A DNA stretch of 64,000 nt from Caenorhabditis elegans. Its lineage: Eukaryota > Nematoda > Chromadorea > Rhabditida > Rhabditidae. The position numbers were made by a program, and so were the translations under genes. The stretch spans positions 1,922,001 to 1,986,000 of the forward strand of contig NC_003280.10 in assembly GCF_000002985.6 (NCBI RefSeq), read 5' to 3'. Positions 18,623 through 55,454 of the stretch are shown one piece after another (position 1 is the first letter of the stretch; every line of letters starts with the position of its first letter). Under the pieces are notes generated by a model, which saw only the letters and a list, made by a program, of their open reading frames with translations, was not told the DNA's origin and did not search any database.

Positions 18623-18807
18623 CCAATAAGTTGTAAGTAGTGAGATGAGCTCAAGTACTCCGTAACTCTCTTGTGGCTCGTACTAGCCGTCATAAAAAAG
18701 TGCAGCAATTTACATAACTTGTGAGCAACTTAGAACGGTACAGTTTTAATTTCATAAAAATTTATTCACATAAGTTTCACCCGAGTAATTTTAACCTCTA
18801 CAAATGA

Positions 18808-21669: not shown

Positions 21670-22057
21670 AAATGAGATTCTGATGATTTTTGAAGTCAAA
21701 ATAAATTTGTTGACCTAATATTTATTAACTCAATTTACGATATTCCCTATCGCTATGATTGTGGTCCGTTGCAAGGTGTGCACGGGAATTCTGGAGATGA
21801 AAGTTCGGCGAAGAACAAAGTATTAGAGCATATTATTAAATCTATTACTTTGTGTGAGTTTCATTTAGTATTCGAATAATCAATTTTATAACCAAATAAA
21901 TGCACAATAAATTTCCTGAATAAAATACTGGTCATAAAAGTGCAGCAATTTACTTAATTTGTAAATGGCACGACTTGGAAAGGTACAGTTTTAATTTCAT
22001 AAAAATTTATTCATATGAGTTTCACCCGAGTAATTCTGCTTTCCAATAGTACAGTTA
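21670..22057. other. Spacer between LINE fragment and MATH copy B
   Basis: No gene. The right part (from about 21900, including aaaagtgcagcaatttac) is the 3' flank shared with MATH copies A (about 18695) and C (about 23400), showing that the duplicated unit extends past the stop codon. Confidence 0.55.
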
Positions 22058-23168: not shown

Positions 23169-23517
23169 TTTTCTTTGCAAAATTGAAATGGATGAAAAAT
23201 CGAAGTGGATTTTTTTTCCACGCTAGCATTTGTTGTTTTTTTAAAACACGCTGGATTTTTTTTAGAAACGTCACGTTTGTTGAAATATGCCGTGCATATT
23301 ATAAAATGGATTACTTTGTATGAATTTAATTTAATATTTGAATAATCAATTTTTAAGCCTAATAAATGAATAATAATTTTCTCGAATAAAACACTGGTCA
23401 TGAAAAAGTGCAGCAATTTACAGAATTTGTGAGCGACTTGGAAAGGTACAGTTTTAATTTTATTAAAATTTATTCACATGAGAATTTCCACCGAGTAATT
23501 GTGTCCTCCAATAGTGA
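23169..23517. other. Spacer between MATH copies B and C
   Basis: 5' flank of copy B and 3' flank of copy C. It contains the shared aaaaagtgcagcaatttac segment near 23404. No gene is seen. Confidence 0.55.
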
Positions 23518-31679: not shown

Positions 31680-33668
31680 TCAGTGATCAAAAGCCATCTC
31701 AAGCCACTTCTCCAATGAATACTCCTGATCCCCCACTGGAATCACGAATCCCGGAAACTTCTCAACATCCTCCATTCCAGTCATTTTCCGAATCCACACA
31801 CGAGCTTCTACTATGATGGTGTCGTTGACTAGGTAATCCTCCTCCAACACATCCCATCTGAGGAACATGTCCCAGCCAACGCCACCACCTCTTTCAATCG
31901 ATAAAATTTTTCCATTTGGTGACACTATTTTCAATTGAAAATCATGTTCAATTGACGATTTTTTGGATTCAGGTTGGCTTTTCCCATGAAGAAGATATAA
32001 TCCTAGAAATCCATTTTGTTTTTCGATTTTCATTCTCCTAAAATACTCATTTTTTAAGTTTTAAAAACAAAAAAACTAACCATGGAATGTTAAACCAAGT
32101 TTGAATGTCCGTAAAGATGCTCCCTCCTTCTTTAATATTTGACATGTTCTTGATAGTATGGGATAGTACAAATGATTTCTCTAGGCATGGTACATCTTCA
32201 AATAATCGGTTTTAGTCCTATTTTAAACTTTAAAGGTGGTGTGGCGCCTGTGAGGAGTTTATTTAAATACACTTATAGTGATCCCAAACGACCGAATATC
32301 ATATTAAAACACTTCCACAAATTTTTATAATTTCCGGTCAAAGTTTTGGAAAATTGCCAAAATTTTGAAAAATATGAGCTTTTGTGGAAATTTAAAGAAA
32401 TGTCGCATGTGTTGACCCCTACAATGTTTTAATACAAATAATTTAAACAAAATTAAAACATAAAAAATCTCAAAAAAAAATTTTTTTTTTGGTCTACTTC
32501 CAAAATTATGAGTGGCAAAAACTGAGTAATTGCCACTTTTTGACAGTAAATAAAAAATTTTCAAAAATTTTTTGAAAAGTTTTTATCATGATATTCGGTC
32601 ATTTTGGGACCAAAGGAGTGGTTTTTAACAATTTCCCCACTGGCGCTACTCCACCTTCAATAAGAAGACCTACCTTTGACTTCAATTATTTTCACGCGAA
32701 CCTCCACATCGATACTGTCATTGCTCACATAATCTTTTTCTATACCATTGCAATAAATTAAAAATACACTACCAGATTTTGCACCAAATGTACAAGTTCT
32801 TTTCGGTACCGAATGAAATTTTCCGTTTGCAGCAATCAATTTGATCTCACGTTCCACCACGACAGTCTTTGTCCTATCTTCGGACACGTGGTGCAAATGG
32901 AATCCAAAAGATCCGTTTTCCTCTTGTAATTCAATTTTCCTAGAAGTAAATTGTTGTTTACTAAGACTGTTTTAATATTATACCATGGAATATTGTAATG
33001 CACTTCTACATCACTATACTGGTACTCTCCCTCTAGAATTCTCGAGAGATTTTTGAAGGTATGTTTTAGCACGAACGATTTTCCCGAATCAGCTGGCATA
33101 TTTGGAAGACCTGAAATAACTTCCTGTAGTATAAGAGTTTTAATGAATTCAATATTACATTTCTGTTCGAAGAATCCTGAACTGCTAACAATATCGGCGT
33201 GAATTTCAATGATAATACTGTCTTCATCCACATAATCCCTTAGCATATTCTCCCAACTAATTAATTTATCCATTCCATGTCCTTCAGGCTTTTGGAATTC
33301 ATGTTGTACAGTCCGTTGGAAGAATTTCCCACTGACAGCTACTAGTTTCATCGTGAATTTTGTTTGAAATGACCATTTTTTCGTCTCGGAGCATTCCTTA
33401 TTTTCACAGTGCAGATTTACACCAAGAAATCCGTCTTTTTTGGAAATGCTGAGCCTCCTAAAAATTCAAGTTTGAAAAATTCAAGTTTTGAAAATCTTTC
33501 AAGTAGTGTTCAGAGAATTCAAATTAGCGTGCATACATAGTTTGTAAAAAAGACAACTAACCATGGAATATTGTGTCGTATTTCAATATCACTGTAGTAA
33601 CTGCCTCCTTCGTCGAGTTTTGATACATCCTTGAAGGTATGAGTTAGCAAGAAAGATCTGCTCGTCAT
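31680..33668 (-). CDS. Three-MATH-domain protein, copy E (intact)
   Basis: Exons 33668-33562, 33457-33159, 33110-32984, 32939-32674, 32195-32081 and 32037-31680 (107, 299, 127, 266, 115 and 358 bp) give 423 aa. MATH 1: MTSRSFLLTHTFKDVSKLDE and ISWENMLRDYVDEDSIIIEI. MATH 2: SFVLKHTFKNLSRILEGEYQ and GIEKDYVSNDSIDVEVRVKI. MATH 3: SFVLSHTIKNMSNIKEGGSI and RWDVLEEDYLVNDTIIVEAR, with a tail ending GDQEYSLEKWLEMAFDH. There is no BTB. Intron 2 uses AAAT|gtaat because the donor used by paralogue F (GCGG|gttt) is mutated to GA here; reading straight through 33158-33111 is also open. Intron 5 contains a dispersed repeat. Substrate-binding role inferred from MATH; partner unknown. Confidence 0.8.
32228..32660. 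mobile_element. MITE-like repeat inside intron 5 of three-MATH copy E
   Basis: Imperfect inverted ends (aaaggtggtgtggcgcc at left; reverse complement of the right end gaaggtggagtagcgcc) also share ACCGAATATC inward of each end. The word ggtggagtagcgccagtggg is, from memory, common in C. elegans dispersed repeats. It explains why this intron is 478 bp while the same intron in paralogue F has about the family minimum of coding-free sequence. Confidence 0.6.
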
Positions 33669-33860
33669 TTTCTTTCAGAAAAAGCACAGAATTGAAATAG
33701 CAAAACGTTAAGCTAGGGGGTGAATGAAAAGTAAGAAATGAAGAAAATAAAAGAGGAGAACCTTCTAACTCTGAGCAAGATAAATACAGGATGACAGAGA
33801 CATTTGTTTGCACAAATTGAACATAGCAAGCCGCAAGATAATGTTGATTTTCTATCAATT
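33669..33860 (-). promoter_or_regulatory. Conserved 5' region of three-MATH copy E
   Basis: Upstream of ATG 33668 lies a TTTTTCTGAAAG acceptor-like site, a T/C-rich stretch and, about 120-190 bp up, the block TGCTATGTTCAATTTGTGC ... TGTATTTATCTTGC (minus strand). The same arrangement stands before copy F and remnant G. Conservation outside coding DNA suggests a promoter duplicated with the genes. Confidence 0.55.
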
Positions 33861-34049
33861 TAAATTAATTTGGACATTAGGAAAATATCAGCAATGATTT
33901 GTTTTATATTTTTTGACCTGCTCCTGATTCCCCGTACTAACACTTGATCTGTTTTTAGAAATAATTATTCGAATCAGACAAATATTACTTCAATGTGTCA
34001 AAGTTCATTTTGGTGTAAAACAAACAAAGAATAAACATTAATTGCATAG

Positions 34050-35890
34050 TCAATGATCAAATGCCATTTCAAGCCACTTTTCCAATGAATATTCCTGATC
34101 TCCCACTGGAATTACAATTCCAGAAGGTTTCTCAACAGTGGTTTCATCTTCAATTCCAATCACATTAAGAATCTTCACGTGAGCTTCAATTGTGAGAGTA
34201 TCGACGACTATGTATTTTTCCTCCAAACTGTTCCATCTCATGAAACGCCATCCGTAACCGGTTGCTTTATCAAACACATATGGTTTTACATTTAACAATA
34301 AACTTCTCCCATTGGATGACACTATTTTAAATTGAAATTCAGTTTCAATTGACCATTTTCTGGATTTACATAGTTGTTTGTCACATAGGAGAAATAATTC
34401 AAAAAACCCGTCTTGCTTTCGAATTTTCAATTTCCTGAAATATTGAAAAAGGTAATGAGTCTAGATAGTGTTTTTAAAATTTAGTTTTTATTGCTCACTT
34501 CATTCTGTCATTAATCATTGTTTTTAGGAAAATATGAGTTTTCTTTTTTTTTCGAGTAAAATACGAATGTTTTACTCAGTTTTTTTTTACAAACAATGAA
34601 ACTTTGAAAATGTTCTTTAAAAAATTGGCTCAGCCCATCAACGTAACCAGTCCAAAATTTGATTTGAATCGTTCTCCGTATTTTTAGTTTCATAAACCAA
34701 AAAATATACACCAAGGGAAAGTAAACTAACCATGGAATGTTAAACCGAGTTTGAATGTCCGTAAAGATGCTCCTTCCTTCTTCAATACTTGACATGTTCT
34801 TGACAGTATGGGATAGTACAAATGATTTCTCTTGGCATGACAATTCTTAAAATAATCGATTAATAACATTCTACATATACTAAAAAGAAACCTGTGATTT
34901 GAACTATTTTGACATGAACTTCCACATCGATACTGCCATTGGTCACATAATCGTTTTCCATATCATTCCAACTAATAAACTGGAATCCCCAATTCGACGT
35001 AGCTCCAAAGATAGCCTTGTTCTGTGTTGAATGAAGTTTCCCGCTCGCAGAAATCAGTTTAAATTCATATTCACACTCAATCGACAATTTTCTTCCTTCG
35101 TACATTTCTTTTTCGCAGTGCAAATAGGTTTCCAGAAACTCGTTATACTTTTCGATTTGCATTCTCCTGAAAAACTAACAATTTTCCCATAGTGCTCCAA
35201 AACATTCAAAAAGATACCATGGAATATTGAAATGCTCTTCTAAATCACTATAATCCGAGTCCCGCTCTACCAATCTCGAAATGTTCTTGAAAGTATGTTT
35301 AAGCACAAATGAATTATTGGAATTTGGTTGCAAATTAGGAAGATCTGGAAGTTATCAATGAGGAGTACTACTCATAAATCTAATTTTACATTTGACTTTA
35401 AAGAAACCCGCACTGCTAACAATATCGGCATGGATTTCAATGATAATACTATCATTATCCACATAATCCCTTAGCATATTCTCCCAACTTATGAATTTAT
35501 TCATTCCATGTCCTTCCGGCTTTTGGAATTCATATTGAACAGTCCGTCGGAAAAACTTCCCACTGACAGCTACTAGTTTCATCGTGAATTTCGTTTGAAA
35601 CGACCACTTTCTCTCTCCAAAGCATTCCTCCTTTTCACAGTGCAGATTTACACCAAGAAACTCTTCTTTCTTGAAAATACGGATTTTCCTGGAAATTTAG
35701 GTTTTGAATAATAACTTGCTGTTCTACTAGTTATCAAGACATTTTCACATCTTTCAATTATGTGTGTAAAAATAATAACTAACCATGAAATATCATGTCG
35801 TATTTCAATATCACTGTAGTAACTGCCTCCTTCGTCGAGTTTTGATACATCCTTGAAGGTATGAGTTAGCAAGAAAGATCTGCTCGTAAT
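34050..35890 (-). pseudogene. Three-MATH-domain gene, copy F, start codon lost
   Basis: Exons 35890-35784, 35688-35408, 35344-35218, 35166-34892, 34845-34731 and 34434-34050 (107, 281, 127, 275, 115 and 385 bp) join into an unbroken 429-codon frame with three MATH domains (SFLLTHTFKDVSKLDEGGSY; SFVLKHTFKNISRLVE; SFVLSHTVKNMSSIEEGRSI) and the same EYSLEKWLEMAFDH end as copy E. The only lesion found is at the start: where E has ATG ACG AGC, F has ATT ACG AGC (35890-35888). No in-frame ATG occurs in the rest of exon 1. Translation from ATT, from an unseen upstream exon, or from the ATG in exon 2 (MKLVAVSGKFF) are alternatives. All splice sites are canonical, so the gene may still be expressed. 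Confidence 0.75.
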
Positions 35891-36065
35891 TTTCTTTCAG
35901 AAAAAGCACAGAATTGAAATAGCAAAACGTTAAGCTAAGGGGTGAATGAAAAGTAAGAAATGAAGAAAATAAAAGAGGAGAATCTTCTAACTCTGAGCAA
36001 GATAAATACAGGATGCTAGAGACATTTGTTTGCGCAAATTGAACACAGCAGGCAACAGGAGGTAC
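35891..36065 (-). promoter_or_regulatory. Conserved 5' region of three-MATH copy F
   Basis: Nearly identical to the 5' region of copy E, including aaaataaaagaggagaa, actctgagcaagataaatac and acatttgtttgcgcaaattg on the plus strand. The transcription signals therefore look preserved although the ATG is not. Confidence 0.55.
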
Positions 36066-37019: not shown

Positions 37020-39412
37020 TCGCATTGGTTTGTGGTCTGACAGATCAGTTTTCGGGCAACTCGTTGCAATTGAACATTCGAATAGCAATCAAGAACTGGT
37101 TAATTGCATGTTGGCTAATGCTCGATCCATTGCATCGCTTGAAAAACTTGAATTTGTCCATAAGTTCGTAGCCTCTAATAGTTTAGACTTCTTGTTTGTT
37201 ACCGAAACATTTCTAAGTAATGCTTTTACTGATTTCTCATGCTCTTCACCTCACTATACCTGCATAAGATCTGATCGGCTTGAGTGCCATCCAAAAAAAT
37301 GCGGCGGAGGTACTGCTGTGTTTTTTCATAAAAAATGGGCTCTTACGCCTGTCTCAATGGCACCTTCTTTTTATCTCTCGCATTTTTGTGAAATTCTGGC
37401 ATTAGACCATAAGCAATCCAAAACTAGATTTATACTGATATACCGCCCCCCCCCCATCCACTACCGCAAGTAGAACCGCTGAGCTCTTTAAAAATCTAAA
37501 CCAGCTTCTCGACTGCCCCTCCTATACTTATGTCCTCCTCGGTGATTTCAATTTTGCAAACACCAAGTGGAATTCAAATTTTCTTCCCACGGGCTCTGAG
37601 TATCTCTATAATTGGATGAAATTTCATGATCTGGCACAAATGGTAAATTTTCCGACTCGGTTTTCCAAATTAAACAGTGGCACGTTTCTTGATCTCATAT
37701 TTACAAATAATTCCGGTGTTTTACAAAATTTAAAACCGGGTACTCCATTTATAAACTCAGATCATATTTCCATTTTCTTCTCCTTATCTCTCCCCCAGAC
37801 CACTCCTGCTCATTCTGCCCCTCCCAAGTCTTTTATGAATTTCAGAAAATGTGATTTTTTCAACCTCAATAGATACATGGTGTCATACAATTGGCCTAAA
37901 CAGCTATCATTCTTTGCTACACCTGATTCTAAGCTTAATCATTTTCTCAAAATTTTTAATGAGCTTATCTCTGATTTCACTCCCCAATATCCAACATTAA
38001 GAGTTCAAAGTCCCAAAGTTACAGGTAGGAAATTATACAGAAAACTTCGTAAGCATCACCCAGACACTGAATCCTCAGTTTCAAAAAAGAGAGTTAAATC
38101 AAGATTAAAATTCCTCAAAAAGAAAAATATGGCTTTTGAAAATAAATTAATTCACTCTAAGAACTCTAAAAGTCTATTCTCTTACATTAGAAATCGTATA
38201 AAGCCTTCCAGTTCTCTCACTCATTTCTCTGTAGACAATAATAATGTTGATAAACCGATTGAAATGGCGGAAGTATTAGTTAAAGAGTTTTCAAAAAGTT
38301 TTGTTACTCATGATCCACCCTTCCCAACTTTTCCTTCCTGTGAGAGCACACCGTCCCCAGTAGATACATCGCCATTAACTATCGCGAGTACCATTCTTAA
38401 ACTAAAACCCAAAATAGGTTATTCCCTTGACAACATAAATTTTTTTATTTTAAAAAAGTGCTGCGATTCCATTTCTATTCCTTTATCTCTAATTTTTAAA
38501 GAATTCATAACTACGAATTCATTCCCATCCTGCTGGAAAACCTCAATTGTGATACCTGTACACAAAAAGGGCAACAGTAGTGACCCCAAAAACTATAGGC
38601 CCATAGCCTTGACTCATCCATTGTCCAGATTATTCGAAATAATAGTATTAAATCCTATCAGGAAAACATTCTCCCACAAGATATCCAAATTTCAGTTTGG
38701 ATTCTTAAACAATAGATCGTGTATAACTGCCCACCTAAATGCTTCATCTAATTACCATAAAATTCTTTCGGTACCCAATCAGTTTGTTGATATTATCCTT
38801 TTCGATTTCGCTAAGGCGTTCGATTCGGTGCCACACGAGCTTCTTTTATGCAAATTGAGAAACTTCGGTTTCGATGATAACATTTGCTTGTGGTTTAAAG
38901 CCTTTATATCAGATCGCGTCTCAAAAGTGAAAATTGGTGATTCCTTGTCAAATTCTTCCTTCAAGAACTCTTCTGGTGTCCTACAAGGCACTGTCACTGG
39001 ACCCTTTTTTTTTGGTCTATATAAATGACCTTCTTGATCTATTCCCCCCTGATGTTCACGTTATTGCATTTGCCGACGATCTCAAACTTTTCAGCAATAA
39101 CTGTCAAAGCTTGCGTTCATCTATAAAAATAATTGAAAACTGGTGTAAAATTTGGCAGCTCAAGCTAGCCGAAAATAAAACAAAGGTACTTCATGTTGGT
39201 AAGAAAAACCCTAAATATAAATATTATGTAAACGGACAAAAGATTGAATGTTGTTCTAAAGCTTGTGATCTTGGCATATGGGTCGATGATCAATTAACTT
39301 ATGAAAAACACATTCTAGTCAAAGTAAATGCAGCAATGTTTAAATGCCGCCAAATACTCAAAAACTTCCGCTCTCTTAATATGATGTTCTACTTCAAATT
39401 ATTTAATACTTA
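37020..39412 (+). mobile_element. Non-LTR retrotransposon (APE + RT), cut by Helitron insertion
   Basis: The apurinic-type endonuclease is recognisable: NARSIASLEKL, VTETFLSNAF, GGGTAVFFHKKW, then LLGDFNFANTKW and NSDHISIFF. Reverse transcriptase follows: [48 protein letters not shown] and [12 protein letters not shown]. Two frameshifts are visible, both in homopolymers: a C10 run near 37443-37453 and a T9 run near 39004-39012. The coding frame stops being LINE at 39412, in the middle of KLFNTY, where the Helitron 3' terminus begins; the missing RT thumb and 3' end should lie to the right of the Helitron array, outside the window. The 5' limit is uncertain. CR1/Jockey-like by motif style. Confidence 0.82.
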
Positions 39413-39442
39413 CCAGCCGTTCGCACGCGCCAAGGCGCGTGC
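39413..39442 (-). other. Helitron 3' terminus: hairpin plus CTGG (copy 1)
   Basis: Plus-strand CCAG (39413-39416) is CTGG on the element strand. The stem is gcacgcgcc (39423-39431) paired with ggcgcgtgc (39434-39442) around a 2-base loop. A hairpin just inside CTRR is the termination signal for rolling-circle transposition. The same terminus starts at 47835 and 55130. Confidence 0.9.
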
Positions 39443-39737
39443 TCCGTCTGGCTTTGTAGTTTCTAGATTTTTAAAACATATTTTCAGCTTGGTTTTTGAA
39501 TTTTACAACTTGAGGTTGAAAACAGCATTGAAACAAATGTCATGTTTCGGATTATCAGTGAGAATATGAGATCTTCTCTTATTGAGTTTCAGTTTTAAAT
39601 ATTTGGGAACAAATCGTGAATTTGATATAATTTCAATTTAAAATTACTTTTTTGAATAGTGTTTGTTCAAAACTATTTCACTTTGACAAATAAAGAAATG
39701 TTGTATATTGTTATTGGTCGAAGTTCAATCGCTTCCA

Positions 39738-39804
39738 GCATGGCACAGCTGGTAGCGCGCGCGTCATTGGCGCGCGGACCTTTTGGTTCGATCCCCGCGA
39801 GGGC
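39738..39804 (+). other. tRNA-like segment with Pol III A and B boxes (Helitron copy 1)
   Basis: TGGCACAGCTGG at 39741-39752 fits the A-box consensus TRGCNNAGYNGG exactly, and GGTTCGATCC at 39785-39794 fits the B box GGTTCGANNCC. Between them cgcgc/gcgcg can form an anticodon-like stem with a GTCATTG loop. The T stem and acceptor stem pair poorly, so it is more likely a tRNA-derived internal promoter than a working tRNA. Confidence 0.5.
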
Positions 39805-40028
39805 AAAAAAATTCTAAAATAGCAAAAGTGTTGCTGAGAATGGTCAAACTACTGGAGATGTCTAGCGAGACCCAGATAAGAGCAGAGGTGCTTCTGAGAG
39901 GGTTGGTGATTCAGGGGTAGTGCGAGCACTATCTCCTGTCTCTTATGTGGCACATTGTTGTGTTTCTGTGGTTATAATAATACTCCCTCCCCCCATACTC
40001 CTACATATGGGGGCGAGTGAGAAGGCTG

Positions 40029-41048
40029 GAGTTGTCGAGCGAGACCTCAGAAGAGAGCTGAGTTGTCTAGCGAGATAGCAGAGAAGAGATGAGTTGTCGA
40101 GCGAGACCTCAGAAGAGAGCTGAGTTGTCTAGCGAGATAGCAGAGAAGAGATGAGTTGTCGAGTGAGACCTCAGAAGAGAGCTGAGTTGTCTAGCGAGAT
40201 AGCAGAAAAGAGCTGAGTTGTCTAGCGAGATAGCAGAGAAGAGATGAGTTGTCGAGTGAGACCTCAGAAGAGAGCTGAGTTGTCTAGCGAGATAGCAGAG
40301 AAGAGATGAGTTGTCGAGCGAGACCTCAGAAGAGAGCTGAGTTGTCTAGCGAGATAGCAGAGAAGAGATGAGTTGTCGAGTGAGACCTCAGAAGAGAGCT
40401 GAGTTGTCTAGCGAGATAGCAGAGAAGAGATGAGTTGTCGAGCGAGACCTCAGAAGAGAGCTGAGTTGTCTAGCGAGATAGCAGAGAAGAGATGAGTTGT
40501 CGAGCGAGACCTCAGAAGAGAGCTGAGTTGTCTAGCGAGATAGCAGAGAAGAGCTGAGTTGTCGAGCGAGACCTCAGAAGAGAGCTGAGTTGTCTAGCGA
40601 GATAGCAGAGAAGAGATGAGTTGTCGAGCGAGACCTCAGAAGAGAGCTGAGTTGTCTAGCGAGATAGCAGAGAAGAGATGAGTTGTCGGGCGAGACCTCA
40701 GAAGAGAGCTGAGTTGTCTAGCGAGATAGCAGAGAAGAGATGAGTTGTCGAGTGAGACCTCAGAAGAGAGCTGAGTTGTCTAGCGAGATAGCAGAGAAGA
40801 GCTGAGTTGTCGAGCGAGACCTCAGAAGAGAGCTGAGTTGTCTAGCGAGATAGCAGAGAAGAGATGAGTTGTCGAGCGAGACCTCAGAAGAGAGCTGAGT
40901 TGTCTAGCGAGATAGCAGAGAAGAGATGAGTTGTCGAGTGAGACCTCAGAAGAGAGCTGAGTTGTCTAGCGAGATAGCAGAGAAGAGATGAGTTGTCGAG
41001 TGAGACCTCAGAAGAGAGCTGAGTTGTCTAGCGAGATAGCAGAGAAGA
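40029..41048. repeat. 62-bp minisatellite, about 16.5 units (Helitron copy 1)
   Basis: Each unit is two related 31-bp halves: one with GTCGAGCGAGACCTCAGAAG, the other with GTCTAGCGAGATAGCAGAGA. Units differ only by single-base variants (gagc/gagtgag, aagagatg/aagagctg). It lies directly downstream of the Rep-helicase stop. Array length differs sharply between the three Helitron copies. Confidence 0.93.
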
Positions 41049-41062
41049 ATAATAAGCTTTAT

Positions 41063-44000
41063 TCAAAGAACTTCATTAAAAACGATATTGGTGACAATAT
41101 TAGAACTGGATTTTACAATAAGACCTTCTTTGGTACGAACTCTTGATAGAGCAACATATAGTTGTCCATGAGTGAAAACATCGGTGGGAATCCAGAGACC
41201 GATTTTAGAAAAGGATTGTCCTTGGGCCTTGTTGATCGATAATGCAAATGATAAGCGAACTGGGAACTGTGTGCGCCTGAGTTGGAAAGAGATGTTCTTA
41301 TCATCATAGCAATCGATTCTTGGAATGATTGTGAAATGTCCTTTCCTCTCGCCAGTTGCAAAGCGACATCCAAGTGAGTGACTGGCCAATGTTTCGACAA
41401 TGAAACGGGAACCATTGCAAAGGCCAGCGGAAACATCGAGATTCCTGAGCAGAATGATCACTGAGCCTTTCTTCAGCTTGAGAATATGGGGAGGAAGAGA
41501 TGATGGGGACATCTTGTTGAGAAACTCGGTGGGATAGTGCATAGTATCCGCTTGATGTTCCACGATCACTTCATCTCGTGACAGATAGATTCTTTCCTCG
41601 CCAACCATTCGATTGTGAACATCGTCATTCAGTTGAGCAACGTCGACGTTCTTAGGTGTAAGGATGACGTTGTCACATGGATCAGACGTGGTTGGATCGA
41701 TAACTGCTCCGAACACTTCCTCGACGATGTTGTGATCGCACATGACAGAGAGTGGGAGTGTAACCTTTGAATCAGAGTCATTTGCAGATCCATCGCCAAC
41801 ATTGAGGAGGAATTGGATCCAATCCGAGTCTCCAGATGTTACTCTCATATTTGAGATGAGATGCAAAATTTGAAACTCTGTCCATAGTGGTGATCTTTTG
41901 ATGCATGCGTCTACTTGATCAGCTCTAGAGCTTCTCTCCACCACAGGTAGGATTTGGCGAAAGTCTCCTCCGAGGATCAGGATCTTCCCACCAAATGGCT
42001 GATCGATCTTTGTGAGATCCCTAAGCAGTACATCGACCGTGTCGAGGGCTGTCTGAAAGTTGAATGAATGATTTGATTAGTACGATCAGAATCACTCTAA
42101 TACCTTGGGAACCATTGATGCTTCATCCCAAATGAAAACGTCGTTCTCCGCTAGCTCTTGTGCTTCTTTCAATTGCCTCTGATGAAGAGAAGACTTGCAT
42201 TGATTTCTAATATCAAGCTTGAAAAGGGAAGCGGATGTTCGACCGAGTGGGAGTAAATTGGCTGCAATTCCTGTCCACGCCGTACACGCTACCTGAAAAT
42301 ATGCAGTATTGAAATAACTTTAGTATGTTTGGTTGAAAGTGTACCTTCAGTCCTCTTCCAACACAGATGTTGTACAGAGTGATGTAGAGATAAGTCTTTC
42401 CGCTCCGTCCAGGCCCATCCAAATAGAAAAGACGGGGTAGCGAGGCATCATCTAATGCAGCAAGGATCTGGTCAGCTGCACGTTTCTGTTGATCATTGAG
42501 TGTCGCAAGGAGCCTATTGCCTTCTGATGCACATTGAGCAGGGTTGACTGTGTCGAGATCGATTGGTGGCGGATTGATAGATGGTTTGGTGACATCGAAT
42601 CTTTTTCCAACCCTGGAAAAATATTATAATCTACTTTTGAAAAAAGCTCAAAAGATACCTTTGAAGGCGACTTTCGATATCAAAATATGCAAGTGCCTCA
42701 GCCTCTTCTTTCCCTGCTCCAGCATGGCGAAAATCCTCAGAAAGATCCCACTTCACGGCATCCCAAAGTGCGTTCAGATCGTGAACTTCGTTAAAAAGAA
42801 TGATAGCGACAAACATTGAGCGAAGAGCTGCGGGCACTGAGCATCCAGCCCACTCTTTCAAAGACTTCAAATATTCGCTGTCATCATTCAGAAGTCCTTG
42901 AGCTTTTGCTGCTTCCACATAAGTTGCGTATACCACTGGAACATTGTTCTCGTCCAAAACAGTACGAAGATCTTCGAATGACATCGCTCCTTTGATGTTC
43001 AAAAGAAGAATTCGAAGTGCGTATCTCTCGGTTTCGTATGGTGGGACAGTGTACATTCGGCCTATCTGCCTTGTGCCTCTTCCTCGAACCTTCCAGCCAT
43101 CCTTTTTCACAAAGGTGAAGTGCGTTGGCATATCCATGTAGAAGAATTGGCGTGAATCAACAAATGTCGAAGGGATGTTCCCGCTCTCCGCAATATCCTT
43201 GCTCTTTTGGTTGATCTTAAACCAAGCTGTGAGAGTCGTGTCGGTTTGTGATGAAGATTCGAGTTGTTGTGTGGTGACACTGGCTCTAAAGTAGATCGTT
43301 TGGAATCCTTCGAGATGCACAGCGAGTCAATAAACTGTATCGGACTTCTTTTCCAGTTTGAATCCCAAGATGTGGTGGATTGCCTCGGGAGCACAGACGT
43401 ATCGAGCATCTAGATGCTCTCGGATCTCATCAACAACATTTCCATCTCCACGTACATTTTGGATGATGTTGAGTGCAGCACGGTCATGTCCTTTGTAGAC
43501 ATATTTGAAGAGATATTTTACAGCTTCGATGAATCCACAAATCTCGACATTCATGTGAGCATTGTAACGGAGCAGAAGCCATTTGTTGTATGGAACAACT
43601 CTCCTGTTATCGAGATGTTGGGTGCCATATTCCACATATCGTCCATCATCCCTTCGACGATACCCGGGATATCCATCAACGTTGAGAGTGGTGCTAGGAT
43701 GAAAATCCTTCGGATACCTTTTCGAGCAGTGCCCATCAACCATGCATGGCGAGTGAGGATTTTGAGCACCACATGGACGATGCATCATGGCGGTGGTCAC
43801 AATGCGATGAAGTTCTGGCTCGTTGTCAGGATTTGGAATCTCAGCTTGCACAATCTTGTCGATGTCCTCCGAGGTTCGTGGCTTTGAGTTCTCTGCCATA
43901 GTTAACAGCATGTGTACATGAGGAAGACCTCGTTTTTGCCTTTCGAACACGGAAATGTATGCGGCAACGTGTCCGAGAATATCCCGATTTAGAAGATCGT

Positions 44001-45936
44001 CAAACAGCGCATCTACCTGGAACACAATGAAGAAAGTGATGAGTTAAATATAGATCTTCAACTTACTTTTAGCTTGAAGACACGGGCAATAAGGTCTGGA
44101 CGATCAGATGCAGATTGTCGCGGACCGAGGTTTTCAGAAATCTCTGTCCATGCAGGATTACACGTGAAAGTTAAAAATATATCAGGCTTTCCGAACTTCG
44201 AGACAATAGCCATCGCGTCTTGAAAGTTTTGGACCATTGCTCGGGGACTCCCTGGAAAAGATGATGGAAGAACGATGCGTCTTCCTGGGACATCAGTATC
44301 TCCAGCAATATAATCCTGAACCGCATTGTAGTTGGCGGCTTTCAAATCAACTTGATGAGTTCGATGATAGTTTAGCCTGTTTTGCTCGATCTGCAAAAAC
44401 ATGATTATTTTGTGAACATGAGATCATGTATTCTTACCTTTACCCATGAGTCTACTGCAAACTGTTGAAACAGGGCACGCCCGTGATGCAGTGGATTGAA
44501 AACTCCTGATCTCTCCATGAGCAGGTAACTGTAGTACATCTTCTGAGTAATCCTTCCTTGTTTCTTCTCCGATGGTCTCTTTTCCAAGTCAGGATGCCAT
44601 CCGTCGGTTCCATTTGGAAACAATACAGGATATGTGAGAGGATCGCAGATCCTATCGATATCACGAATCGTCTTAAGTCCTCCTCCTCTTGGATGAACAG
44701 CCAAAGAGCGAGTGGTTGGCACGTCATCGTCTTCGCCCACAAAAACAACTGCGACTTCATTCGCTTGTGGCAAGTTATAACGTCGTGGATCCTTAGTTGT
44801 CGAAATATCGAAGATCAGTCGAACGCATCCCGGATGTCGTCCTTCCTTTGCAGCTTCAGAATTTTCTTTTTCTTCAACTTCAGCCATCATCTTGTATGCC
44901 TGTGCATATGGATTGGTTCTCAACAGAAGACTGCTCAATTCAGCCATAACAGCAGGATCACAATCGGCATTGGCAGGATTTCCAAGCCTCTCGTCTGTTG
45001 CTTGATCAGTGTCCAGGATGTAGATCTGTCCAAATGCTGGTCTCTGGCCTGGATCCGGGTGAAGTGGTCCCGCAAAATGGTAAACTTGACCGTGGATTTT
45101 GAAGCAGTATGGGCCGCGGCCTCTCGGAACATCAAGTTGTGCACCCATCGATGCCATTGCGAACGATGAATTAAACTGTCGGATGTTCTTCTGGAAGTTA
45201 CGGGCGTGAGAAGAATCATCGAGGAGAAGATGTCGTAGTTCATCTGGGTAGTTGGAGAATCGATCTTGAAGTGTGGTTGTTAATCCGAAGTAGCAACACA
45301 TATTGATATGATCGTTGGATGAGGACACCTCTCCTGAAACATTAAATTTCTGTATGATGCTAGTATATGTTATTAGTTATGAAAAAAAACCAATCTGAAA
45401 CTCAGAATGGAAATAAGAAGTAGAAGTTCACTAAACTTTGAAAAAATGTATACCTTGAAAGAATCTGGCATTGCAGTTCTTGCACACACATCTCATGCTT
45501 CCAAGGTAGTTGGGATTGGCAACAGATGACGTATCGTGTGTTTTTGCTACTTCATTTCTTTTTTTCTTCATCCATACTCTTTTTTTATATTTCATCTCAG
45601 CCTTTTCCTCTTCTGACATTGAAGCTCGTTTTTCCTTTTTTCTTTCCCAATCCATCCTGAGTCTTGATTCTGATTCTTGCGAAGTTTCTCTTGAACGACG
45701 TTCTCTCTTCCATACAGCATTTGAGTTGTCACTAAAACTGCTTATTGGTAAAATTCCACGAGCATTCAAGATCCTTACCTTAATGTTCTGGAACGTGTCC
45801 TCCTAGAGACGGGTTCTTGGGATGTAGAAGGGAAATCAGGCAGGTTTGTTGGTTTGGTATCCATTGCTGAATCGGGTAGAGTTGTTGGTTCCGTATCCAT
45901 TATTGAATCGGGTCGACTTGTTAGCTCGTTATCCAT
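41063..45936 (-). pseudogene. Helitron Rep-helicase, copy 1, with in-frame TGA
   Basis: Exons 45936-45779, 45737-45454, 45333-44438, 44390-44067, 44016-42659, 42612-42345, 42292-42104 and 42052-41063 join in phase into 1,488 codons. A Cys pair region (CVCKNCNARF) lies N-terminal. Rep signatures are FTCNPAWTEI, the HUH motif LPHVHML (His 587/589) and the tyrosines of KYLFKYVYKGHD (Tyr 722/726). Helicase signatures are Walker A DGPGRSGKT (Lys about 1079), Walker B IWDEASM, LGGDFRQILPVV and the C-terminal AQGQSFSKIGLW/YVALSRV. TGA at 43329-43327 (codon about 784) replaces the Arg expected in VYRL between Rep and helicase. All else is intact. AATAAA overlaps the stop codon. Role in life: nicking, unwinding and rolling-circle transposition. 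TGA readthrough, or two separate proteins, are possible but unproven. Confidence 0.85.
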
Positions 45937-46640
45937 TGTTGATTAATAATGAGAAAATGATAATTTTCTTCTCCTTATATAGAATTTTTTTGGAAGATTC
46001 TAGAAGTTTTGGGTCTTGAAACGAATTGGGTTTTAGAAGGACAGATTTAATATAGTTTAAACTTGTAATAATATAAATTAAAAATTGCACAATGAAATAG
46101 TCAAAATTTAAATTTTGCACACTACATTGAAAAATCCAGAAGTTTCTAGATGGTTGTAGAATCTTCTTGATTATATTAATGGGTAGTTCCTGTGATGTCT
46201 TTATCAGTGACGTCATCTTTTGTGACGTTATTGGAACATTCTCTTCTTTTTCTGCAACTTCTGGAAGATTCCAGAAGTTTCTTTTACTGTAATGGGCGGA
46301 GCCTATGACGTCACATTCTGTGACGCTGATATATTTGGCGTCATCACCTATTTTTTTCCGAATGTGAGACTATATAGGTGTCATCATATGTGACGTCATA
46401 ATCTGTGACTTATTTTTTGTTACGCCAGTGATTGTGACGTCATCAGAATTTTCTGGAAGTTTCTCCAAAATTCTAGAAGGTTCCAGAATTTTCTGAAAAT
46501 TATATTGGGTTCAGCCTGTGACGTTTACTTAATGTCCTCATCATGTGTGACGTCGTCAAGTGTTACGTAATCCGAGATATCTAGAAGTTTTTCGAAATTT
46601 CTAGAAGATTCTCGAAGTTTATTGCATGAAGTTTTCCTCT
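45937..46640 (-). promoter_or_regulatory. Helitron Rep-helicase promoter with heat-shock elements, TATA and CRE-like sites (copy 1)
   Basis: On the minus strand a TATATAAGG box lies at 45973-45981, about 40 bp before the ATG. Upstream are runs of alternating GAA/TTC pentamers: 45993-46008, 46264-46281 (GAAGATTCCAGAAGTTTC, four perfect units), 46446-46463 (four units), 46471-46493 (five units) and 46594-46616 (five units). These match HSF-1 binding sites. TGACGTCA palindromes are at 46208, 46306, 46391 and 46435. Helitron-borne HSF-1 sites have been reported in Caenorhabditis; here they stand in front of the element's own gene. Confidence 0.75.
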
Positions 46641-46789
46641 TCTATAGGTTTATTAAATTCTAAACAAATGTGCCGGGATGTCGCATTGGTTGTGTGCGGG
46701 AATTTGGTGTGAACCTTCTGTGGTTCAAACTATCTTCCCCTTCATACTTTTTTTTTCTGTCAAACAAAGTTAAATTTGACTACTCCGAC

Positions 46790-47650
46790 AAAATTTCTCT
46801 AAAAATTTGAATTTCCCGCCATAATTTTTCACTGAAAATTTGAATTCCCGCCAAAAATTTTTCAGAAAATTTGAATTCCCGCCAAAAAATTGTAAAGAAA
46901 ATTTAAATTCCCGCCAAAAATTTTCAGAGAAAATTTGAATTCCCGCCAAAAATTTTTCAGAAAATTTGAATTCCCGCCAAAATTTTTCACAGAAAATTTG
47001 AATTCCCGCCAAAAAATTTTAAAGAAAATTTAAATTCCCGCCAAAAATTTTCAGAGAAAATTTGAATTCCCGCCAAAAATTTTTCAGAAAATTTGAATTC
47101 CCGCCAAAATTTTTCACAGAAAATTTGAATTCCCGCCAAAAAATTTTAAAGAAAATTTAAATTCCCGCCAAAAATTTTCAGAGAAAATTTGAATTCCCGC
47201 CAAAAATGTTTCAGAAAATTTGAATTCACGCCAAAAATTTTCAAAGAAAATTTGAATTCCCGCCAAAAAATTTTGAAGGAAATTTAAATTCCCGCCAAAA
47301 TTTTTCAGAGAAAATTTGAATTCCCGCCAAAAATTTTTCAGAAAATTTGAATTCCCGCCAAAAAATTTTGAAGGAAATTTAAATTCCCGCCAAAATTTTT
47401 CAGAGAAAATTTGAATTCCCGCCAAAAATTTTTCAGAAAATTTGAATTCCCGCCAAAATTTTTCACAGAAAATTTGAATTCCCGCCAAAAAATTTTAAAG
47501 AAAATTTAAATTCCCGCCAAAAATTTTCAGAGAAATTTTGAATTCCCGCCAAAAATGTTTCAGAAAATTTGAGCTACCGCCAAAAATTTTCACAGAAAAT
47601 TTGAATTCCCGCCGAAAAATTTCAAAGAAAATTTAACTTCCCGCCAAAAT
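46790..47650. repeat. Minisatellite of TTCCCGCCAAAA units, about 27 (Helitron copy 1)
   Basis: A roughly 31-bp AT-rich unit (aaaatttgaattcccgccaa) repeats about 27 times. Nearly every unit contains TTCCCGCCAAAA or its one-base variants, which equals the E2F/EFL-1 consensus. Variant units include cacgcc (47227), taccgcc (47575) and cccgccg (47608). It lies between the HSE promoter and the element's 5' end. The periodic open frames across it (MAGIQIFCEKFWREFKF) are a by-product of the repeat. Confidence 0.88.
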
Positions 47651-47720
47651 GTATGGGTCTCGCCACGATGGGTCTCGCCACGAAGGGTCTCGCAACGATG
47701 GGTCTCGCCACGAAGGGTGA
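47651..47720 (+). repeat. Short tandem repeat GGGTCTCGCCACGAA/T (copy 1)
   Basis: Four to five 15-bp units between the minisatellite and the Helitron 5' end. Copy 3 has one more unit (63901-63977) than copies 1 and 2. Confidence 0.8.
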
Positions 47721-48159
47721 CTGGCCCCGCCCACAACTCTCAGTGACTTTAGGGGTGACGTCACAGACTACAAAGACTACATAGACTACAAACTATGGAC
47801 AGACCCACACTATTTTTTTATATATAAGTAATGACCAGCCGTTCGCACGCGCCAAGGCGCGTGCTCCGTCTGGCTTTGTAGTTTCTAGATTTTTAAAACA
47901 TATTTTCAGCTTGGTTTTTGAATTTTACAACTTGAGGTTGAAAACAGCATTGAAACAAATGTCATGTTTCGGATTATCAGTGAGAATATGAGATCTTCTC
48001 TTATTGAGTTTCAGTTTTAAATATTTGGGAACAAATCGTGAATTTGATATAATTTCAATTTAAAATTACTTTTTTGAATAGTGTTTGTTCAAAACTATTT
48101 CACTTTGACAAATAAAGAAATGTTGTATATTGTTATTGGTCGAAGTTCAATCGCTTCCA

Positions 48160-48226
48160 GCATGGCACAGCTGGTAGCGCGCGCGTCATTGGCGCGCGGA
48201 CCTTTTGGTTCGATCCCCGCGAGGGC
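48160..48226 (+). other. tRNA-like segment (Helitron copy 2)
   Basis: Identical in sequence to 39738-39804; A box starts at 48163. Confidence 0.5.
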
Positions 48227-48450
48227 AAAAAAATTCTAAAATAGCAAAAGTGTTGCTGAGAATGGTCAAACTACTGGAGATGTCTAGCGAGACCCAGATA
48301 AGAGCAGAGGTGCTTCTGAGAGGGTTGGTGATTCAGGGGTAGTGCGAGCACTATCTCCTGTCTCTTATGTGGCACATTGTTGTGTTTCTGTGGTTATAAT
48401 AATACTCCCTCCCCCCATACTCCTACATATGGGGGCGAGTGAGAAGGCTG

Positions 48451-48819
48451 GAGTTGTCGAGCGAGACCTCAGAAGAGAGCTGAGTTGTCTAGCGAGATAG
48501 CAGAGAAGAGATGAGTTGTCGAGTGAGACCTCAGAAGAGAGCTGAGTTGTCTAGCGAGATAGCAGAGAAGAGCTGAGTTGTCGAGCGAGACCTCAGAAGA
48601 GAGCTGAGTTGTCTAGCGAGATAGCAGAGAAGAGATGAGTTGTCGAGCGAGACCTCAGAAGAGAGCTGAGTTGTCTAGCGAGATAGCAGAGAAGAGATGA
48701 GTTGTCGAGCGAGACCTCAGAAGAGAGCTGAGTTGTCTAGCGAGATAGCAGAGAAGAGATGAGTTGTCGAGTGAGACCTCAGAAGAGAGCTGAGTTGTCT
48801 AGCGAGATAGCAGAGAAGA
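48451..48819. repeat. 62-bp minisatellite, about 6 units (Helitron copy 2)
   Basis: Same unit as at 40029-41048, but the array is 369 bp, a difference from copy 1 of exactly 651 bp (10.5 units, i.e. 21 half-units). Confidence 0.93.
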
Positions 48820-48833
48820 ATAATAAGCTTTAT

Positions 48834-51800
48834 TCAAAGAACTTCATTAAAAACGATATTGGTGACAATATTAGAACTGGATTTTACAATAAGACCTTCT
48901 TTGGTACGAACTCTTGATAGAGCAACATATAGTTGTCCATGAGTGAAAACATCGGTGGGAATCCAGAGACCGATTTTAGAAAAGGATTGTCCTTGGGCCT
49001 TGTTGATCGATAATGCAAATGATAAGCGAACTGGGAACTGTGTGCGCCTGAGTTGGAAAGAGATGTTCTTATCATCATAGCAATCGATTCTTGGAATGAT
49101 TGTGAAATGTCCTTTCCTCTCGCCAGTTGCAAAGCGACATCCAAGTGAGTGACTGGCCAATGTTTCGACAATGAAACGGGAACCATTGCAAAGGCCAGCG
49201 GAAACATCGAGATTCCTGAGCAGAATGATCACTGAGCCTTTCTTCAGCTTGAGAATATGGGGAGGAAGAGATGATGGGGACATCTTGTTGAGAAACTCGG
49301 TGGGATAGTGCATAGTATCCGCTTGATGTTCCACGATCACTTCATCTCGTGACAGATAGATTCTTTCCTCGCCAACCATTCGATTGTGAACATCGTCATT
49401 CAGTTGAGCAACGTCGACGTTCTTAGGTGTAAGGATGACGTTGTCACATGGATCAGACGTGGTTGGATCGATAACTGCTCCGAACACTTCCTCGACGATG
49501 TTGTGATCGCACATGACAGAGAGTGGGAGTGTAACCTTTGAATCAGAGTCATTTGCAGATCCATCGCCAACATTGAGGAGGAATTGGATCCAATCCGAGT
49601 CTCCAGATGTTACTCTCATATTTGAGATGAGATGCAAAATTTGAAACTCTGTCCATAGTGGTGATCTTTTGATGCATGCGTCTACTTGATCAGCTCTAGA
49701 GCTTCTCTCCACCACAGGTAGGATTTGGCGAAAGTCTCCTCCGAGGATCAGGATCTTCCCACCAAATGGCTGATCGATCTTTGTGAGATCCCTAAGCAGT
49801 ACATCGACCGTGTCGAGGGCTGTCTGAAAGTTGAATGAATGATTTGATTAGTACGATCAGAATCACTCTAATACCTTGGGAACCATTGATGCTTCATCCC
49901 AAATGAAAACGTCGTTCTCCGCTAGCTCTTGTGCTTCTTTCAATTGCCTCTGATGAAGAGAAGACTTGCATTGATTTCTAATATCAAGCTTGAAAAGGGA
50001 AGCGGATGTTCGACCGAGTGGGAGTAAATTGGCTGCAATTCCTGTCCACGCCGTACACGCTACCTGAAAATATGCAGTATTGAAATAACTTTAGTATGTT
50101 TGGTTGAAAGTGTACCTTCAGTCCTCTTCCAACACAGATGTTGTACAGAGTGATGTAGAGATAAGTCTTTCCGCTCCGTCCAGGCCCATCCAAATAGAAA
50201 AGACGGGGTAGCGAGGCATCATCTAATGCAGCAAGGATCTGGTCAGCTGCACGTTTCTGTTGATCATTGAGTGTCGCAAGGAGCCTATTGCCTTCTGATG
50301 CACATTGAGCAGGGTTGACTGTGTCGAGATCGATTGGTGGCGGATTGATAGATGGTTTGGTGACATCGAATCTTTTTCCAACCCTGGAAAAATATTATAA
50401 TCTACTTTTGAAAAAAGCTCAAAAGATACCTTTGAAGGCGACTTTCGATATCAAAATATGCAAGTGCCTCAGCCTCTTCTTTCCCTGCTCCAGCATGGCG
50501 AAAATCCTCAGAAAGATCCCACTTCACGGCATCCCAAAGTGCGTTCAGATCGTGAACTTCGTTAAAAAGAATGATAGCGACAAACATTGAGCGAAGAGCT
50601 GCGGGCACTGAGCATCCAGCCCACTCTTTCAAAGACTTCAAATATTCGCTGTCATCATTCAGAAGTCCTTGAGCTTTTGCTGCTTCCACATAAGTTGCGT
50701 ATACCACTGGAACATTGTTCTCGTCCAAAACAGTACGAAGATCTTCGAATGACATCGCTCCTTTGATGTTCAAAAGAAGAATTCGAAGTGCGTATCTCTC
50801 GGTTTCGTATGGTGGGACAGTGTACATTCGGCCTATCTGCCTTGTGCCTCTTCCTCGAACCTTCCAGCCATCCTTTTTCACAAAGGTGAAGTGCGTTGGC
50901 ATATCCATGTAGAAGAATTGGCGTGAATCAACAAATGTCGAAGGGATGTTCCCGCTCTCCGCAATATCCTTGCTCTTTTGGTTGATCTTAAACCAAGCTG
51001 TGAGAGTCGTGTCGGTTTGTGATGAAGATTCGAGTTGTTGTGTGGTGACACTGGCTCTAAAGTAGATCGTTTGGAATCCTTCGAGATGCACAGCGAGTCA
51101 ATAAACTGTATCGGACTTCTTTTCCAGTTTGAATCCCAAGATGTGGTGGATTGCCTCGGGAGCACAGACGTATCGAGCATCTAGATGCTCTCGGATCTCA
51201 TCAACAACATTTCCATCTCCACGTACATTTTGGATGATGTTGAGTGCAGCACGGTCATGTCCTTTGTAGACATATTTGAAGAGATATTTTACAGCTTCGA
51301 TGAATCCACAAATCTCGACATTCATGTGAGCATTGTAACGGAGCAGAAGCCATTTGTTGTATGGAACAACTCTCCTGTTATCGAGATGTTGGGTGCCATA
51401 TTCCACATATCGTCCATCATCCCTTCGACGATACCCGGGATATCCATCAACGTTGAGAGTGGTGCTAGGATGAAAATCCTTCGGATACCTTTTCGAGCAG
51501 TGCCCATCAACCATGCATGGCGAGTGAGGATTTTGAGCACCACATGGACGATGCATCATGGCGGTGGTCACAATGCGATGAAGTTCTGGCTCGTTGTCAG
51601 GATTTGGAATCTCAGCTTGCACAATCTTGTCGATGTCCTCCGAGGTTCGTGGCTTTGAGTTCTCTGCCATAGTTAACAGCATGTGTACATGAGGAAGACC
51701 TCGTTTTTGCCTTTCGAACACGGAAATGTATGCGGCAACGTGTCCGAGAATATCCCGATTTAGAAGATCGTCAAACAGCGCATCTACCTGGAACACAATG

Positions 51801-53707
51801 AAGAAAGTGATGAGTTAAATATAGATCTTCAACTTACTTTTAGCTTGAAGACACGGGCAATAAGGTCTGGACGATCAGATGCAGATTGTCGCGGACCGAG
51901 GTTTTCAGAAATCTCTGTCCATGCAGGATTACACGTGAAAGTTAAAAATATATCAGGCTTTCCGAACTTCGAGACAATAGCCATCGCGTCTTGAAAGTTT
52001 TGGACCATTGCTCGGGGACTCCCTGGAAAAGATGATGGAAGAACGATGCGTCTTCCTGGGACATCAGTATCTCCAGCAATATAATCCTGAACCGCATTGT
52101 AGTTGGCGGCTTTCAAATCAACTTGATGAGTTCGATGATAGTTTAGCCTGTTTTGCTCGATCTGCAAAAACATGATTATTTTGTGAACATGAGATCATGT
52201 ATTCTTACCTTTACCCATGAGTCTACTGCAAACTGTTGAAACAGGGCACGCCCGTGATGCAGTGGATTGAAAACTCCTGATCTCTCCATGAGCAGGTAAC
52301 TGTAGTACATCTTCTGAGTAATCCTTCCTTGTTTCTTCTCCGATGGTCTCTTTTCCAAGTCAGGATGCCATCCGTCGGTTCCATTTGGAAACAATACAGG
52401 ATATGTGAGAGGATCGCAGATCCTATCGATATCACGAATCGTCTTAAGTCCTCCTCCTCTTGGATGAACAGCCAAAGAGCGAGTGGTTGGCACGTCATCG
52501 TCTTCGCCCACAAAAACAACTGCGACTTCATTCGCTTGTGGCAAGTTATAACGTCGTGGATCCTTAGTTGTCGAAATATCGAAGATCAGTCGAACGCATC
52601 CCGGATGTCGTCCTTCCTTTGCAGCTTCAGAATTTTCTTTTTCTTCAACTTCAGCCATCATCTTGTATGCCTGTGCATATGGATTGGTTCTCAACAGAAG
52701 ACTGCTCAATTCAGCCATAACAGCAGGATCACAATCGGCATTGGCAGGATTTCCAAGCCTCTCGTCTGTTGCTTGATCAGTGTCCAGGATGTAGATCTGT
52801 CCAAATGCTGGTCTCTGGCCTGGATCCGGGTGAAGTGGTCCCGCAAAATGGTAAACTTGACCGTGGATTTTGAAGCAGTATGGGCCGCGGCCTCTCGGAA
52901 CATCAAGTTGTGCACCCATCGATGCCATTGCGAACGATGAATTAAACTGTCGGATGTTCTTCTGGAAGTTACGGGCGTGAGAAGAATCATCGAGGAGAAG
53001 ATGTCGTAGTTCATCTGGGTAGTTGGAGAATCGATCTTGAAGTGTGGTTGTTAATCCGAAGTAGCAACACATATTGATATGATCGTTGGATGAGGACACC
53101 TCTCCTGAAACATTAAATTTCTGTATGATGCTAGTATATGTTATTAGTTATGAAAAAAAACCAATCTGAAACTCAGAATGGAAATAAGAAGTAGAAGTTC
53201 ACTAAACTTTGAAAAAATGTATACCTTGAAAGAATCTGGCATTGCAGTTCTTGCACACACATCTCATGCTTCCAAGGTAGTTGGGATTGGCAACAGATGA
53301 CGTATCGTGTGTTTTTGCTACTTCATTTCTTTTTTTCTTCATCCATACTCTTTTTTTATATTTCATCTCAGCCTTTTCCTCTTCTGACATTGAAGCTCGT
53401 TTTTCCTTTTTTCTTTCCCAATCCATCCTGAGTCTTGATTCTGATTCTTGCGAAGTTTCTCTTGAACGACGTTCTCTCTTCCATACAGCATTTGAGTTGT
53501 CACTAAAACTGCTTATTGGTAAAATTCCACGAGCATTCAAGATCCTTACCTTAATGTTCTGGAACGTGTCCTCCTAGAGACGGGTTCTTGGGATGTAGAA
53601 GGGAAATCAGGCAGGTTTGTTGGTTTGGTATCCATTGCTGAATCGGGTAGAGTTGTTGGTTCCGTATCCATTATTGAATCGGGTCGACTTGTTAGCTCGT
53701 TATCCAT
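48834..53707 (-). pseudogene. Helitron Rep-helicase, copy 2, with the same in-frame TGA
   Basis: Same eight-exon structure as copy 1 shifted by 7,771 bp; all visible protein segments are identical. TGA lies at 51100-51098. The shared stop shows that it predates the tandem amplification or that the copies are homogenised. Confidence 0.85.
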
Positions 53708-54411
53708 TGTTGATTAATAATGAGAAAATGATAATTTTCTTCTCCTTATATAGAATTTTTTTGGAAGATTCTAGAAGTTTTGGGTCTTGAAACGAATTGG
53801 GTTTTAGAAGGACAGATTTAATATAGTTTAAACTTGTAATAATATAAATTAAAAATTGCACAATGAAATAGTCAAAATTTAAATTTTGCACACTACATTG
53901 AAAAATCCAGAAGTTTCTAGATGGTTGTAGAATCTTCTTGATTATATTAATGGGTAGTTCCTGTGATGTCTTTATCAGTGACGTCATCTTTTGTGACGTT
54001 ATTGGAACATTCTCTTCTTTTTCTGCAACTTCTGGAAGATTCCAGAAGTTTCTTTTACTGTAATGGGCGGAGCCTATGACGTCACATTCTGTGACGCTGA
54101 TATATTTGGCGTCATCACCTATTTTTTTCCGAATGTGAGACTATATAGGTGTCATCATATGTGACGTCATAATCTGTGACTTATTTTTTGTTACGCCAGT
54201 GATTGTGACGTCATCAGAATTTTCTGGAAGTTTCTCCAAAATTCTAGAAGGTTCCAGAATTTTCTGAAAATTATATTGGGTTCAGCCTGTGACGTTTACT
54301 TAATGTCCTCATCATGTGTGACGTCGTCAAGTGTTACGTAATCCGAGATATCTAGAAGTTTTTCGAAATTTCTAGAAGATTCTCGAAGTTTATTGCATGA
54401 AGTTTTCCTCT
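53708..54411 (-). promoter_or_regulatory. Helitron promoter with HSE, TATA and CRE-like sites (copy 2)
   Basis: Same arrangement as copy 1 shifted by 7,771 bp: TATA near 53744-53752, HSE runs near 54035, 54217, 54242 and 54365. Confidence 0.75.
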
Positions 54412-54559
54412 TCTATAGGTTTATTAAATTCTAAAAAAATGTGCCGGGATGTCGCATTGGTTGTGTGCGGGAATTTGGTGTGAACCTTCTGTGGTTCAAA
54501 CTATCTTCCCCTTCATACTTTTTTTTTCTGTCAAACAAAGTTAAATTTGACTACTCCGA

Positions 54560-54947
54560 CAAAATTTCTCTAAAAATTTGAATTTCCCGCCATAATTTTT
54601 CACTGAAAATTTGAATTCCCGCCAAAAATTTTTCAGAAAATTTGAATTCCCGCCAAAAAATTTTAAAGAAAATTTAAATTCCCGCCAAAAATTTTCAGAG
54701 AAAATTTGAATTCCCGCCAAAAATTTTTCAGAAAATTTGAATTCCCGCCAAAATTTTTCACAGAAAATTTGAATTCCCGCCAAAAAATTTTAAAGAAAAT
54801 TTAAATTCCCGCCAAAAATTTTCAGAGAAATTTTGAATTCCCGCCAAAAATGTTTCAGAAAATTTGAGCTACCGCCAAAAATTTTCACAGAAAATTTGAA
54901 TTCCCGCCGAAAAATTTCAAAGAAAATTTAACTTCCCGCCAAAATGT
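54560..54947. repeat. TTCCCGCCAAAA minisatellite, about 12 units (Helitron copy 2)
   Basis: Same unit as copy 1. The first and last units correspond, so units were lost or gained inside the array. Confidence 0.88.
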
Positions 54948-55454
54948 ATGGGTCTCGCCACGATGGGTCTCGCCACGAAGGGTCTCGCAACGATGGGTCT
55001 CGCCACGAAGGGTGACTGGCCCCGCCCACAACTCTCAGTGACTTTAGGGGTGACGTCACAGACTACAAAGACTACATAGACTACAAACTATGGACAGACC
55101 CACACTATTTTTTTATATATAAGTAATGACCAGCCGTTCGCACGCGCCAAGGCGCGTGCTCCGTCTGGCTTTGTAGTTTCTAGATTTTTAAAACATATTT
55201 TCAGCTTGGTTTTTGAATTTTACAACTTGAGGTTGAAAACAGCATTGAAACAAATGTCATGTTTCGGATTATCAGTGAGAATATGAGATCTTCTCTTATT
55301 GAGTTTCAGTTTTAAATATTTGGGAACAAATCGTGAATTTGATATAATTTCAATTTAAAATTACTTTTTTGAATAGTGTTTGTTCAAAACTATTTCACTT
55401 TGACAAATAAAGAAATGTTGTATATTGTTATTGGTCGAAGTTCAATCGCTTCCA

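Follow-up and report, generated by a model that had tools for sequence, protein, structure and literature searches.

The window analysed here, a stretch of 64,000 nucleotides of Caenorhabditis elegans DNA (contig C2, bases 1,922,001-1,986,000, of a genome of 100,286,401 bases in 7 contigs), carries on its minus strand an array of three complete and nearly identical Helitron copies that lie head to tail in a single target site within a LINE, share private markers and have no host base between them. The account that we favor, with evenly balanced confidence, is that a multimer of two or three units derived from one source element entered this A/T site and was later reshaped by homologous exchange or conversion.

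Array architecture and insertion site

Exact 3' ends (n = 3) and exact 5' ends (n = 3) delimit units of 8422, 7295 and 8965 bp, arranged on the element strand as 5'-C-B-A-3' with zero spacer bases. Copy A (39413..47834, minus strand, 8422 bp) is the 3'-most on the element strand; copy B (47835..55129, minus strand, 7295 bp) has, at both ends, satellites shorter than those of A and C; and copy C (55130..64094, minus strand, 8965 bp in total) has its 5' end 94 bases past the end of the window at 64000. The original prediction of a seamless junction between B and A was borne out on the element strand, where the CTGG of B is joined to the TC of A at 47834..47835, and a second, identical joint connects the CTGG of C to the TC of B at 55129..55130, making two exact junctions of two. 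On the plus strand the B/A junction reads ...TATATATAAGTAATGA followed directly by CCAGCCGTTCGCACGCGCC..., with the break between 47834 and 47835, and on the element strand both junctions read GCGAACGGCTGG followed by TCATTACT, so that in the B/A case ...GGCTGG, the 3' end of B, abuts TCATTAC..., the 5' end of A. The 261 bp spanning each of the two junctions are 100% identical to each other, and the 5' terminal 135 bp of copy A (47700..47834, minus strand) recur with 100% identity in B, in C and at five other places in the genome.

The array family is Helitron1_CE, an autonomous Helitron. Canonical termini were found in six of six full copies, each running from TC to CTGG (TC / CTRR), and the 3' terminal hairpin of copy B (47835..47873, minus strand, ending in CTGG), the one copy folded, gave a DNA fold of -16.9 kcal/mol (z -4.63) with an 8-bp inner stem and closing pairs, a value reached by 1 of 200 shuffles. 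The Rep-helicase gene region of copy B (48834..53147, minus strand) is a series of open reading frames; Pfam assigned a family to two of six of them (Helitron_like_N, 2.1e-10; PIF1, 5.9e-24), an NCBIfam search yielded nothing useful, and HVH, YLFKY and the Walker A motif GPGRSGKT were read in the translations. Motifs of these types define the Helitron Rep protein (HUH, two tyrosines) and its PIF1-like helicase.

Six complete Helitron1_CE copies on chromosome II, our A, B and C together with three single copies (M1, M2 and M3), have been tabulated with their satellite coordinates (PMC9918286 Table 2), and the chromosome II coordinates given there agree with ours. The genes named in that table are ZK250.9 at copy A, ZK250.10 at B, Y16E11A.2 at C, Y46B2A.2 at M1, F33H12.6 at M2 and F59H6.5 at M3. 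For the longest copy, a legend in the same paper gives 8956 nt versus the 8965 measured here. ZK250.10 is considered a pseudogene (PMC9918286), although the gene region of copy B (48833-53707) shows 0 differences in 4875 bp from that of copy A (41062-45936); A and C differ there at one position.

The left part of the interrupted LINE (39300..39412, plus strand) ends in ...AATACTTA, and the outer ends of the array read ATTGGTCTAATA followed by TC and CTGG followed by TAAGTATTAAAT. When the LINE flanks were joined in silico, an uninterrupted open reverse-transcriptase frame (LFNTYIRPILEYGC) was restored with neither gap nor duplication. The joined stretch matches five other LINE copies, in which this empty site is uninterrupted, over 239-240 bp at 96.7-99.6% identity, and a sixth over 167 bp at 95.2%; the array therefore sits in one A/T site without target duplication. 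A host A precedes TC and a T follows CTGG at all four insertion loci read, namely the array and the three single copies, with empty sites checked for the array only. Canonical Helitrons insert between A and T and duplicate no target bases. Termini, open reading frames and joined LINE flanks thus agree with the original prediction of a full-length, gene-bearing Helitron trimer on the element strand within one LINE target.

Relationship of the copies

The six complete copies were aligned and substitutions counted outside the satellites. Within the trimer, A and B differ at 1 of 6713 positions, A and C at 2 of 6712 and B and C at 3 of 6712, versus 10-25 differences from the single copies overall: 12, 13 and 10 for A, B and C, respectively, to M3; 23, 24 and 23 (of about 6118) to M1; and 24, 25 and 24 to M2. 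A, B and C are set apart from M1-M3 by four substitutions that they share (alignment columns 3992, 4950, 5526 and 5592), together with a common 32-bp deletion close to the 3' end. The other family members examined have unrelated sequence upstream of the hairpin and did not reveal the polarity of this deletion, but a short CA(A) repeat common to its two edges leads us to regard it as derived.

The near-identity and the private markers indicate that the three copies came from one source. In partial conflict with this, C has two markers in common with M3 (column 3514 and the indel at column 1177), so that it is markers from the 3' part of the element that group A, B and C together. The single copy M3 is complete, lies about 16 kb away in the opposite orientation to the array (G000:C2:2001893-2010151) and shares neither of these two markers with A or B, which hints at gene conversion between inverted copies. 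The sharing could be due either to conversion between C and M3 or to reversal in A and B.

Satellites of 31 and 32 bp lie near both ends of each copy (in copy A at 40029-41052 and about 46770-47720). The 31-bp satellite near the 3' end of copy A (40029..41052, approximate bounds, minus strand) has 33 units, compared with 12 in B and 48 in C, and satellite lengths thus differ among A, B and C while the remaining sequence is nearly identical. In their 5' satellites, A and C arrange the unit types in almost the same order, which differs from that in M1-M3.

A and B are further distinguished from C by a common substitution (column 1256) and by lacking two satellite units and one 15-bp unit. Because A and B share changes absent from C, exchange or stepwise growth must have taken place after or during the making of the array; had a single event left three identical copies, these A and B markers would need later exchange. 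The same markers speak against a trimer whose three copies have stayed unaltered since one insertion.

Rarity of seamless joints in the genome

A pattern for the family 3' end, with up to three mismatches, matched 120 places (68 + 52) compared with 18 for the reversed control. Among the 100 matches listed of the 120 counted, a family 5' end follows directly only at the two array joints. Both joints fall among the six full-length copies (hypergeometric 0.003, post hoc). One other 3' end among the 100 listed, at C4:13863004, is followed by TC; it was rejected as a joint, and the next 119 bp, found nowhere else, are taken as host DNA since no second copy of them was found. Two pairs of 3' ends (G000:C2:1036711 and 1039553; G000:C5:2626048 and 2631636) have the same downstream flank within each pair and are probably segmental duplications.

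A second pattern, CTRR followed by the family 5' end with up to two mismatches, matched 63 places, all listed, a number that is not a total of family 5' ends because the mismatch count includes CTRR. CTRR was fully matched in five of the 63: the two array joints and three places with CTAA or CTGA. None of these three has a 3' hairpin end upstream, and they were discarded as joints; one of them, C6:15613288, also gave no BLAST match to the family 5' end.

Origin of the array

A seamless joint of CTRR to TC could arise in three ways, known or plausible: from a transposase-made circle or multimer, by insertion at the boundary between host A and the TC of a resident copy, or by homologous recombination between a circle and a resident copy, the last being our own suggestion. 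The proposal that the B/A junction is a rolling-circle product is compatible with our results; the junction is not specific to that mechanism, since the A/TC boundary is itself a legal target. The host A before TC at all four loci makes the 5' boundary of a copy an A/T target, so that serial insertion would yield the same bases, and we therefore set aside the junction alone as proof of rolling-circle multimers, as a seamless pair in maize has also been read as consecutive insertion in the passages describing it (PMC2267711). The identity of the three copies is better evidence for a common origin than the junction, and is also compatible with exchange between copies.

Given the near-identity and the private markers, production of a circle or multimer by the transposase explains a single source with the fewest events. 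In the published model, the Rep nuclease cuts at the 5' end and one strand is peeled off or copied; the 3' hairpin end is then cut and joined, which yields a circle whose joint places the 3' end exactly against TC. Were the 3' cut missed, whether on the circle or within a resident tandem, the product would be a multimer. We infer that such a multimer, of two or three units from one source element, entered the LINE at the single A/T site, and that copy number or markers were altered later by homologous exchange or conversion among the adjacent copies and perhaps with the relative about 16 kb off.

Homologous recombination could instead have built the array, an unlikely course of events in which an excised circle recombines with a resident copy to form a dimer, and unequal exchange between A and C then generates B as a hybrid. 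B matches A and not C at five 5'-ward markers (columns 1177, 1256 and 3514, the satellite order l-m, and a single 15-mer) and matches C and not A at one 3' satellite unit, the mosaic expected of unequal exchange. However, the C-like side amounts to a single base of a single satellite unit, and that base may have changed in A alone; it is what separates a plain sister of A from a C/A hybrid, and B fits both. Unequal exchange also presupposes a dimer, and so leaves the first junction unexplained.

Serial insertion, in which a Helitron enters the A/TC boundary of a resident copy twice and produces CTGG joined to TC each time, is in our view rather improbable. The 5' boundary is a legal target, with A before TC and T after CTGG, as described above; the maize pair shows that unlike Helitrons can be joined seamlessly (PMC2267711), and in the passages on a fungal triple both readings are offered (PMC5148889). 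Nevertheless, the chance insertions expected at family 5' boundaries amount to about 0.0004-0.0008 for the family under rough assumptions, and at the remaining 98 listed 3' ends no family 5' end follows. Moreover, the three copies are closely related to one another and are not a mixture of family members; serial insertion would need active self-targeting.

It is highly improbable that a single copy was written three times in assembly. Long, near-identical repeats are a classic assembly hazard, but the copies differ in their satellite units (33, 12 and 48) and in substitutions, and the gene names, which carry clone labels, indicate that the array spans two clones, ZK250 and Y16E11A.

Ordinary segmental tandem duplication of a single copy does occur in related Helitrons, as at G000:C5:6295400-6300400, where three 3' ends in tandem units are spaced 1551 and 1376 bp apart with the same host flank after each, but in contrast to that locus the array has no host base between its copies, and the breakpoints would have had to hit both termini exactly, which makes this origin barely credible. 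Two further direct repeats were noticed in the window, at 18689-23216 (about 1.3 kb at 90%) and 32980-36050 (0.86 kb at 83%).

Known Helitron arrays and significance

Tandem Helitrons are described in passages on bat, plant, Drosophila and fungal genomes (PMC5876387, PMC5148889, PMC2267711), and according to a section of a review, nematode genomes can acquire long tracts of tandem repeats through the rolling-circle mechanism of Helitrons (PMC9071541). In Myotis lucifugus, known to us through citing papers, the perfect head-to-tail junctions of tandem Helitrons were read as rolling-circle products (via PMC2267711, PMC5876387); compared with these, the worm array shows complete gene-bearing copies and an empty site. 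Maize Helitrons No.1 and No.2 (Du et al. 2008, PMC2267711) have the same kind of joint, with a 3' CTRR against TC, but are unlike elements, read in the passages concerned as consecutive insertions, whereas outside the satellites the worm copies agree at about 99.95% or more of positions.

For the three tandem copies of Metarhizium acridum, the proposed origins are two successive insertions at the 5' end or, alternatively, rolling-circle replication (PMC5148889); that element is grouped with Helitron2, and the passages dealing with it give no empty site or pairwise markers. Helraiser forms precise head-to-tail circles that can transpose, and their joined ends are of the same kind as the worm junction, as stated in passages of PMC4778049 and PMC5876387. 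In contrast to the chromosomal worm array, these circles are extrachromosomal and derive from a rebuilt bat element in human cells (PMC4778049, PMC5876387).

The six complete copies are already in print, and the passages of that 2023 paper that concern the same three genes and three single copies do not describe end-to-end joining (PMC9918286). A search of titles and passages, with subscription journals largely outside its range, returned no account of the array as a head-to-tail trimer; within that literature, the joining of three of the copies as a trimer was apparently not reported.

Seamless Helitron arrays are thus known in other organisms, and the worm array is a complete and young example in a testable laboratory model. 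Multimer formation by Helitrons has so far been argued from genomic arrays and from the rebuilt bat element. Because the transposase of the Helitron1_CE family is heat-shock induced, according to the relevant passages of two reports (PMC6927752, PMC6765114), terminator bypass, serial insertion and recombination could be tested against one another in the worm. It is possible, although we hold it only tentatively, that the array is a captured rolling-circle trimer of a Helitron that may still be live, in which the 3' terminator was bypassed twice, the three-unit product was inserted and the joints are still usable; if so, monomers, dimers or trimers could leave from the array.
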